64,000 nt of DNA from Chlorobiaceae bacterium (lineage in GTDB: Bacteria > Bacteroidota > Chlorobiia > Chlorobiales > Chlorobiaceae): NCBI GenBank assembly GCA_013334965.1, contig JAAXWO010000008.1, positions 62,001 through 126,000 of the forward strand, read 5' to 3'. Shown here piece by piece: positions 13,128 through 14,583 of this stretch. Within the stretch, counting starts at the first letter, position 1. Each line of letters starts with the position of its first letter. The notes below the pieces were generated by a model that worked only from the letters and a program-made list of their open reading frames with translations, made no database searches and was not told where the DNA came from. Position numbers and translations under genes: made by a program.

Positions 13128-13207
13128 TGGGTGTCATGAGGATTCGATCCGACATAAAGACTCAACGTAACAATTTCCGGAAGGAGAATTCTTGCCACAC
13201 AAATAAC

Positions 13208-13229
13208 TTTACATAATTTATATTATACA
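13208..13229 (+). repeat. 22-bp inverted repeat, left copy
   Basis: This copy pairs in inverted orientation with 13895-13916: 21 of 22 bases match and 18 are continuous (13208-13225). The core is itself an imperfect palindrome of ATAAT/ATTAT half-sites. Either a pair of operators or the ends of a small element about 709 bases long. Confidence 0.7.
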
Positions 13230-13395
13230 ACATATCTGACAAAAGACAGCGAAAGGAATAATTGAGCTTTATGCTGTATTTCAACCGCCCTGAAGATTCT
13301 GGCATCAACCTGTTCTTCTCCCTCGGGAACTTAGGCAAGCAGAATGCTTCCGTTCCTGAACACCTCCTTTGTATCAATCAACGCGTCAATCGCGG

Positions 13396-13521
13396 TTATT
13401 TTCCGTTCAACTCGAAAATCTTCCTGCCGTTTCCGGGTACAACCGGATCGACCATGAACTGATATATCAACCCGAAGGTCGCAAACAAGATTACGATACT
13501 CGCACCACCAGGTATCGTCAT
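13396..13521 (-). CDS. Candidate 41-residue single-helix membrane protein
   Basis: Not recognised. The ORF reads ATG 13521 to TAA 13396. A good ribosome site (GAGGA, eight bases upstream on the minus strand) precedes it. The peptide starts MTIPGGASIVILFATFGLIY, one hydrophobic helix of about 18 residues, and continues with a polar tail containing DPVVPGNGRK and ending ELNGK. That is the layout of small accessory subunits of membrane complexes. It lies alone inside the inverted repeats. No family is claimed; conservation in other Chlorobi would decide. Confidence 0.5.
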   Translation of the reverse strand: MTIPGGASIVILFATFGLIYQFMVDPVVPGNGRKIFELNGK

Positions 13522-13894
13522 ATTTCTGTCCTCAGAGCGTTTTATTTCTCGAATACAGGTAATGCGATATCATCATTCATCACCGTACTGATGTTCCATG
13601 AGGCGTTATGCAGACAACTCGAAAATACGATCGCTTGCCTTGTTCATGCCGCTCGCCATGAGCTGATCTTTCCTGGGGCCCATTTCTGACAGCCAGTAAC
13701 TTGACATAAGGTCGAATGTGACGCGCTCCATCAAACAGATGTGCCACCGATATCGCCAGCGACCGACTCTTTAACAAAGCCATCCGGCGACATAAAATTA
13801 ACAACAATGTCCTTTGTCATGAATACGCATCAACATGATCGCCAAGGCCGCACACCACATATATCATATATACTCACCCCTTGCCGCCAGCGGA

Positions 13895-13916
13895 TTGCAT
13901 AATATAAATTATGTAA
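13895..13916 (-). repeat. 22-bp inverted repeat, right copy
   Basis: Inverted partner of 13208-13229, with one mismatch at position 13898. It lies about 105 bases before the CsoR-like palindrome and 296 bases before the rhodanese start. Confidence 0.7.
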
Positions 13917-14020
13917 TTAATGCACATTACAGCCTTTTCTATACATATACGACAAACATCAGCTCCATCAGATCAGTGTGAAAATAAACTATTGCTCCTT
14001 TCCTGATATTTGTTAGATTA

Positions 14021-14039
14021 TATACCCATACGGGGTATA
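14021..14039 (+). promoter_or_regulatory. CsoR/CstR-like operator upstream of the rhodanese gene
   Basis: A perfect dyad, tataccc-atacg-gggtata, with GC tracts flanked by AT. This is the type of site bound by CsoR/RcnR-family repressors (copper-sensing CsoR, persulfide-sensing CstR), whose operators have TACC...GGTA with C/G runs. The next gene downstream is a rhodanese, a typical CstR-controlled function. No CsoR-family gene lies in the window. Spacing to the rhodanese ATG is 172 bases. Confidence 0.55.
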
Positions 14040-14211
14040 GGTATTGTACACAACAAACCGATCGATGTCCTATATGGATCTCCCCTTGCCATTCAGTAAT
14101 AAAATAAACTGCCTCTCATCCCCTTCGATTCGGCGCAGGCAATCCGATACAAGAGACCTATGGCTTGACATGAGAAGCAGGTGAGCGAGAAATAGTCATA
14201 AATCATATAGC

Positions 14212-14583
14212 ATGAACAAGACACGTGAAGTCAGCCCCAGCGCTGCACTCGCAATGATAAAAAAAGGCGCATTGCTTGTCGATGTACGTGAACCATCTGA
14301 AATTGAAAGAAAAGCATTCGATGTTCCCGACATCATGTCGATTCCGTTACGCGAAATTGAAAAACGATACAAGGAAATCCCCGCCAACCGTCAGGTAATT
14401 CTCGCCTGTCGAAGCGGAAATCGCAGTTTGATGGCGCTCCAGGTCCTGATGAGCAAAGGACACCGGAAAGCGGTCAGCATGCAATCGGGAATTTCCGGAT
14501 GGTCACGGGCTGAACTCCCAATCAGACAAAAGCAGACTCAACATTCATTCTCATGGTTATTGCGGCTTTTTCACAAGAAATGA
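14212..14583 (+). CDS. Single-domain rhodanese (sulfurtransferase)
   Basis: 123 residues with one rhodanese domain (residues about 5-105): VDVREPSEIE near the start and the active-site loop ACRSGNRS, whose Cys carries the persulfide. There is no signal peptide, so it is cytoplasmic; the C-end is basic and may touch the membrane. It would move sulfane sulfur between carriers, a plausible job in a sulfide oxidiser. The CsoR/CstR-like palindrome upstream suggests control by persulfide or copper. Confidence 0.92.
   Translation: MNKTREVSPSAALAMIKKGALLVDVREPSEIERKAFDVPDIMSIPLREIEKRYKEIPANRQVILACRSGNRSLMALQVLMSKGHRKAVSMQSGISGWSRAELPIRQKQTQHSFSWLLRLFHKK

Follow-up and report, generated by a model that had tools for sequence, protein, structure and literature searches.

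What binds the perfect palindrome that lies upstream of a rhodanese gene in this member of the Chlorobiaceae, and to which signal does its regulator respond? Green sulfur bacteria live on sulfide. We analyzed the whole 64,000-nucleotide stretch of DNA that carries the palindrome (the window), the genome to which the window belongs, and the related genomes of the order. Judged from sequence, the palindrome is very probably the operator of a CstR-type repressor that would be released by reactive sulfur and would control both the rhodanese and its own operon.

The dyad, the rhodanese gene and the predicted promoter

The locus comprises the following features.

13992–13997, + strand: putative −35 element TTGCTC, recognized from the sequence, 29 bp upstream of the dyad
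14021–14039, + strand: dyad TATACCC-ATACG-GGGTATA, core of the predicted CstR operator, recognized from the sequence and kept in relatives
14021–14044, + strand: full conserved operator TATACC-N7-GGTATA-GGTAT (dyad plus third half-site), 24 bp, defined by alignment of sites
14045–14211, + strand: leader from the operator to the rhodanese start codon; no open reading frame of at least 60 aa in the gene direction is confined within it
14212–14583, + strand: single-domain rhodanese (sulfurtransferase) of 123 aa, the presumed target gene (PF00581, E 2.4e-11)

A preliminary description of the locus had reported a perfect TATACCC-N5-GGGTATA dyad, and this is indeed present (TATACCCATACGGGGTATA), with no mismatch in either arm; shuffled window sequence gave 0.01 dyad matches at two mismatches or fewer. 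The conserved element runs 5 bp further than the dyad, through GGTAT, to position 14044. The dyad had also been placed ahead of the rhodanese gene. It does lie upstream, but it is not adjacent: it begins 191 bp before the ATG, and the gene starts 173 bp past the dyad end. The encoded rhodanese carries its active-site Cys in a CRSGNR loop, and the catalytic Cys is present in all 80 aligned relatives.

Two neighboring features were also recorded. A VIT-family transporter gene (PF01988; 14595–15290, − strand) is convergent with the rhodanese gene, with 11 bp between them, and the same pairing occurs in genome G007. The gap at 13128–14010 was considered as the place of a second regulator gene; the only thing found there was a decayed RibD_C-like (dihydrofolate-reductase-type) gene copy with broken frames (13337–13730, − strand), whose DNA is 69% identical to an intact reading frame at the corresponding position of the closest relative (L071:1041–1679).

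The third half-site GGTAT directly follows the dyad, with at most one mismatch, at all 54 rhodanese sites and 69 of the 74 cstR sites identified in relatives (described below). The rhodanese sites point in the gene direction in 36 cases and against it in 18, and sites begin about 46 to 240 bp before the gene start. A TTG located 27–30 bp before the operator, corresponding to the putative −35 element of the window, accounts for 26 occurrences across the 36 same-direction rhodanese sites and 65 across the 69 cstR sites. An E. coli-type promoter scan flagged nothing on the + strand in this region of the window, TTGCTC included. Given a TTG about 28 bp upstream, the operator should cover the promoter, beginning near the −10 region and extending over the start point, a position suited to a repressor. 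Both the cstR genes and the sulfurtransferase genes thus appear to carry, at their predicted promoters, a TAC/GTA inverted repeat together with a G/C run.

A single predicted CstR-type repressor and its putative operon

The genome containing the window (2.48 Mb, 20 contigs, 99.7% complete) was scanned in full for the dyad at up to three mismatches. Two copies had no mismatch, none had one, and three had two. Altogether there were 48 matches per strand, compared to 55 for a reversed-pattern control, so the mismatch tail represents noise. The second perfect copy (TATACCCGTACGGGGTATA, G000:C7:37061–37079) lies on another contig, where it begins 55 bp before the ATG of a CsoR-family gene, with 70 bp between the end of the dyad and the PF02583 match. 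This gene, hereafter cstR, encodes the only CsoR-family protein found in the genome at E ≤ 1. Likewise, a search for the 24-bp extended operator at fewer than three mismatches returned the window site and the cstR site alone. The suggestion that the repressor gene lies outside the window was therefore correct, and the proposed search of the genome for CsoR-family genes and further palindromes led to one gene, closely preceded by a copy of the dyad. The absence of any CsoR-family protein, named there as grounds for rejecting the reading, thus does not apply.

The repressor is an 86-aa protein that scores 73.3 bits against PF02583 (E 2.2e-20; family cut-off 22.8), which places it in the CsoR family. 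Its residues Cys38, Asn63 and Cys67 form the signature C-x24-N-x3-C, as opposed to the copper-type C-x24-H-x3-C. Among solved structures, its nearest relative is 7mq1 (E 3e-10), which we take to be the CstR of S. pneumoniae, with InrS and the copper CsoRs ranking lower. Entry 7mq1 is filed under the name csoR; the accessible text of one study calls its partner entry, 7MQ2, CstR (PMC9774590). Both Cys residues, which are 29 apart and occupy the CsoR x and z positions, are invariant in 80 of 80 orthologues. Position y between them is Asn in 77 orthologues, Ser in two and Asp in one; among the solved proteins it is Asn in 7mq1 and His in 2hh7 and 4m1p (copper CsoRs) and in 5fmn (InrS). This His is a metal ligand, as established for M. 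tuberculosis CsoR. The own-genome repressor thus lacks the Cys-His-Cys Cu(I) site of copper sensors, with Asn replacing the ligand His, and a copper-type CsoR was for this reason set aside as the first choice. According to the accessible portions of the respective papers, the 29-residue spacing is also that of C31/C60 in S. aureus CstR (PMC9774590) and C39/C68 in Thermus thermophilus TTHA1953 (PMC10318464).

Downstream of cstR lies a putative operon with genes for a TolC-like channel (present in 69 of the loci compared), an RND pump (67), a 101-aa protein (48), an MBL-fold protein (56) and a CBS protein (54). The counts refer to 79 cstR loci (78 records plus the own genome, some ending at contig ends and four from outside the Chlorobi). 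The 101-aa protein (L006:10089–10394, on contig C7 of the own genome), encoded between the RND pump and MBL genes, has no Pfam or NCBIfam match. The solved relatives of the MBL protein include the human persulfide dioxygenase ETHE1, with glyoxalase II proteins close behind. It likewise gives a match to the Blh dioxygenase model, though its best NCBIfam score is with a glyoxalase II model. In four genomes (G036, G037, G057 and G060) the operator stands ahead of two sets of genes, OsmC and an SQR-like flavoprotein in one direction and a cytochrome c in the other, and in G065 it precedes OsmC and SQR-like genes. The own genome contains no close copy of this SQR-like target, the matches reaching 27–31% identity at most. 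Taken together, site positions and gene order predict that CstR controls genes for a rhodanese, an MBL protein or an SQR-like flavoprotein.

These data bear on whether the same repressor might instead respond to Cu(I) or another soft metal, with the operon serving metal efflux. PF02583 is named for metal-sensitive repressors, and the RND pump does reach 267 bits with TIGR00914, the model of the CusA/CzcA heavy-metal subfamily. However, a multidrug subfamily model fits the pump better (424 bits), the His that CsoR carries between its two Cys residues is Asn in 77 of 80 orthologues, and sulfur or redox genes make up the other predicted targets (rhodanese, ETHE1-like MBL protein, SQR-like flavoprotein and OsmC). 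We therefore consider a metal effector very unlikely.

Conservation of the predicted operator in the Chlorobiaceae

We surveyed 98 genomes of the order, 86 from the Chlorobiaceae and 12 from three other families, and took site and protein tallies from per-genome tables. PF02583 proteins were present in 82 of the 98 genomes, i.e., in 82 of the 86 Chlorobiaceae, whose records include Chlorobaculum, Chlorobium and Pelodictyon, and in none of the 12 others. Rhodanese orthologues were collected at E ≤ 1e-8. Seven rows, with matches that scored below 118 bits or stopped short of residue 115, were set apart as paralogues, and one match of 60.8 bits, about six lower-scoring rows and matches below 95 bits were left out. 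Sequences within 250 bp upstream of 73 rhodanese genes from 71 genomes, and of 80 cstR genes from 74 of the 82 genomes encoding a PF02583 protein, were compared with TATACC-N7-GGTATA, allowing two mismatches.

The dyad was present at 54 of the 73 rhodanese orthologues and at 74 of the 80 cstR genes; for 60 permuted half-site controls, the means were 0.48 and 1.25 and the maxima 4 and 28, respectively. Exact matches were obtained with a spacer of 7 alone. Together with the number of copies in the own genome, this family-wide conservation rules out a chance palindrome. Five of the 19 rhodanese genes without a proximal site have one about 530–560 bp upstream, ahead of the preceding gene, which raises the count to 59 of 73. 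In four of these five loci the intervening reading frame encodes a small, CxxCH-containing cytochrome c and an OsmC-like gene is divergent; in the fifth, G070, the intervening frame is overlain by a longer one. For the remaining 14 orthologues, seven of them from the window's own genus, none was found in the upstream sequence that was read, which extended to at most 2 kb. The family can thus do without control of the rhodanese. A tree of 80 rhodaneses requires 5 changes in site presence, compared to 18 for shuffled labels, which indicates that the site is kept or lost by clade. The preliminary description had named lack of conservation ahead of orthologous rhodaneses as the result that would count against it; these counts show that the dyad is conserved there, with the 14 exceptions.

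Six of the 80 cstR genes lack a site within 250 bp when up to two mismatches are allowed. In about ten genomes, a single predicted operator is shared by neighboring, divergent cstR and rhodanese genes. Tandem cstR duplicates, approximately 390–420 bp apart, occur at L262 (G072), L263 (G075), L267 (G070), L268 (G060) and L235 (G071), where the operator variants differ between the two copies.

We also asked whether the site is a property of a paralogous type of rhodanese, and this was rejected. The rhodanese paralogue of the own genome (G000:C2:55036) has no dyad within 700 bp, and of the seven lower-scoring rows only that of G044, which groups with site-bearing rows on the tree, has a site.

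The extended operator is present in 77 of the 98 genomes, all of them Chlorobiaceae, and in none of the 12 genomes from other families. In the whole set, 76 genomes have both the PF02583 protein and the extended site, six the protein only, one the site only and 15 neither, a count that is partly circular because most sites sit ahead of cstR itself. The pairing of CstR with this operator is a prediction, and the six genomes with a protein and no site (at two mismatches or fewer) and the one with a site and no protein would also be expected if some other transcription factor bound both the cstR and rhodanese promoters. Such a factor is extremely unlikely. Against it stand the autoregulatory position of the site, ahead of 74 of 80 cstR genes, and the lack of the extended site in the 12 genomes of other families, none of which has a PF02583 protein.

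Further homologues also argue against another factor. Two plasmid-borne Bacillaceae homologues of the Cys/Asn/Cys type lie in tusA/dsrE/MBL sulfur clusters, one of which includes a rhodanese, and TATACC-N6-GGTATA or near copies occur at promoters, both upstream of the regulator gene and immediately downstream of it. The half-site is that of the Chlorobiaceae and the spacer is one shorter (6 compared to 7). At the cut used, no such site was found for two other plasmid homologues, from Leuconostoc and Rhodococcus. Conversely, two genomes of the family, G026 and G049, encode a CsoR-family paralogue of the C-H-H type (L008 and L009) that may represent an RcnR- or FrmR-like system, and the palindrome just upstream of it is a different one, TATACT-N7-AGTATA. 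The half-site of the Bacillaceae Asn-type proteins and the separate palindrome of the C-H-H paralogue suggest that operator and regulator type go together. CstR homologues with 50–57% identity were also observed in contigs of Peregrinibacteria, Gracilibacteria and Magasanikbacteria (L286, L287 and L291), with TATACC-N7-GGTATA-like sites upstream at one to two mismatches.

The sister site ahead of the only CsoR-family gene, the CstR-type residues and the conservation of the site support the original reading of the dyad as an operator of the CsoR/CstR type, and point to a real, conserved CstR-type regulon.

Predicted response to reactive sulfur and comparison with known systems

The Cys/Asn/Cys signature, the targets with roles in sulfur handling and the CstR chemistry described in the accessible text of PMC9774590 lead us to infer that persulfide, and not Cu(I), is the effector. 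The model predicts DNA binding, repression and derepression by persulfide, as well as the functions of the pump and rhodanese. In the absence of reactive sulfur, CstR would occupy the 24-bp site, which is predicted to overlap the start region of the promoter of the rhodanese gene, and would thereby block transcription. Upon build-up of persulfide or polysulfide, Cys38 and Cys67 of neighboring subunits would be joined through sulfur, and the sulfur-linked CstR would leave the DNA. The rhodanese would then be produced along with the repressor operon, i.e., the TolC-like channel, the RND pump and the ETHE1-like MBL protein.

A CstR-like signature is no guarantee of persulfide sensing. As far as the accessible text reports, TTHA1953, which has the same Cys spacing, loses DNA binding through disulfide formation and is not released by NaHS (PMC10318464). 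The Chlorobiaceae repressor might similarly sense thiol oxidation or another electrophile, but we regard this as unlikely. Rhodanese, ETHE1-like MBL and SQR-like targets fit the handling of sulfane sulfur, a peroxide signal would presumably matter less to strict anaerobes, and both S. aureus CstR and Bacillus YrkD are described, in the text available, as responding to sulfane sulfur (PMC9774590; PMC9918477).

Several known systems can be compared with the one predicted here. Like the Chlorobiaceae protein, the CstR proteins of S. aureus, E. faecalis and S. pneumoniae belong to the CsoR family and have two Cys residues 29 apart, and that of S. pneumoniae (7mq1) shares the Asn. CstR control of rhodaneses is already known in Firmicutes (PMC9774590; PMC9918477; PMC5480029, as far as their accessible text extends), and in S. 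aureus it extends to the H2S oxidation system with SQR, likely the one operon that CstR controls there (accessible text of PMC5480029). As in cst operons, the Chlorobiaceae site is found at a rhodanese, an ETHE1-like MBL protein and, in some genomes, an SQR-like flavoprotein. In contrast to cst, the Chlorobiaceae operon includes a TolC-like channel and RND pump, the rhodanese gene mostly forms its own unit at another genomic location, and the operator combines a spacer of 7 with a third half-site. YrkD of Bacillus licheniformis is a CstR-like repressor, sensing sulfane sulfur, of a sulfur-oxidation cluster with two promoters; all genes of this system are in one cluster, and the accessible description mentions no RND pump (PMC9918477). 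The Bacillaceae loci homologous to YrkD carry the TATACC-N6-GGTATA-type sites, with a spacer of 6 compared to 7 in the Chlorobiaceae. TTHA1953 is also CstR-like with dispersed sulfur-oxidation targets, and recognizes TAC/GTA inverted repeats (TACNNTACNNNNGTANNGTA); it differs in spacing, in having no G or C run, in its Sox targets and in its lack of response to NaHS, to the extent that these are covered in the accessible text (PMC10318464).

The copper CsoRs, of M. tuberculosis and others, share the family fold and a G/C-rich dyad, but have His where the Chlorobiaceae protein has Asn. Their targets are copper genes.

The logic of CstR control is hence known, and the predicted operator geometry, the RND pump within the operon and the separate rhodanese unit are new here. 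Literature searches of titles and abstracts, with subscription papers mostly outside their scope, returned no persulfide-sensing repressor in green sulfur bacteria; a title and abstract search combining CstR, RND and sulfane sulfur also returned none. A CstR-type sensor coupled to an RND efflux pump would be unlike the cst operons as described in the accessible literature.

The predicted operator and its sensor can be named across the whole family, and the regulon is small and exact, with two sites in the genome containing the window. Reactive-sulfur sensing in a sulfide-dependent phototroph thereby becomes directly testable. The pairing of site and gene, kept over most of the family, is probably how these bacteria sense reactive sulfur. 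More speculatively, and with a probability that we rate as low, CstR may be a family-wide sensor of sulfane sulfur, with its own three-half-site operator type (TATACC-N7-GGTATA-GGTAT) and with an RND–TolC exporter plus rhodanese as its main output, forming a persulfide-triggered overflow valve that exports reactive sulfur or a carrier of it. If so, this export would possibly feed the extracellular sulfur that green sulfur bacteria deposit.
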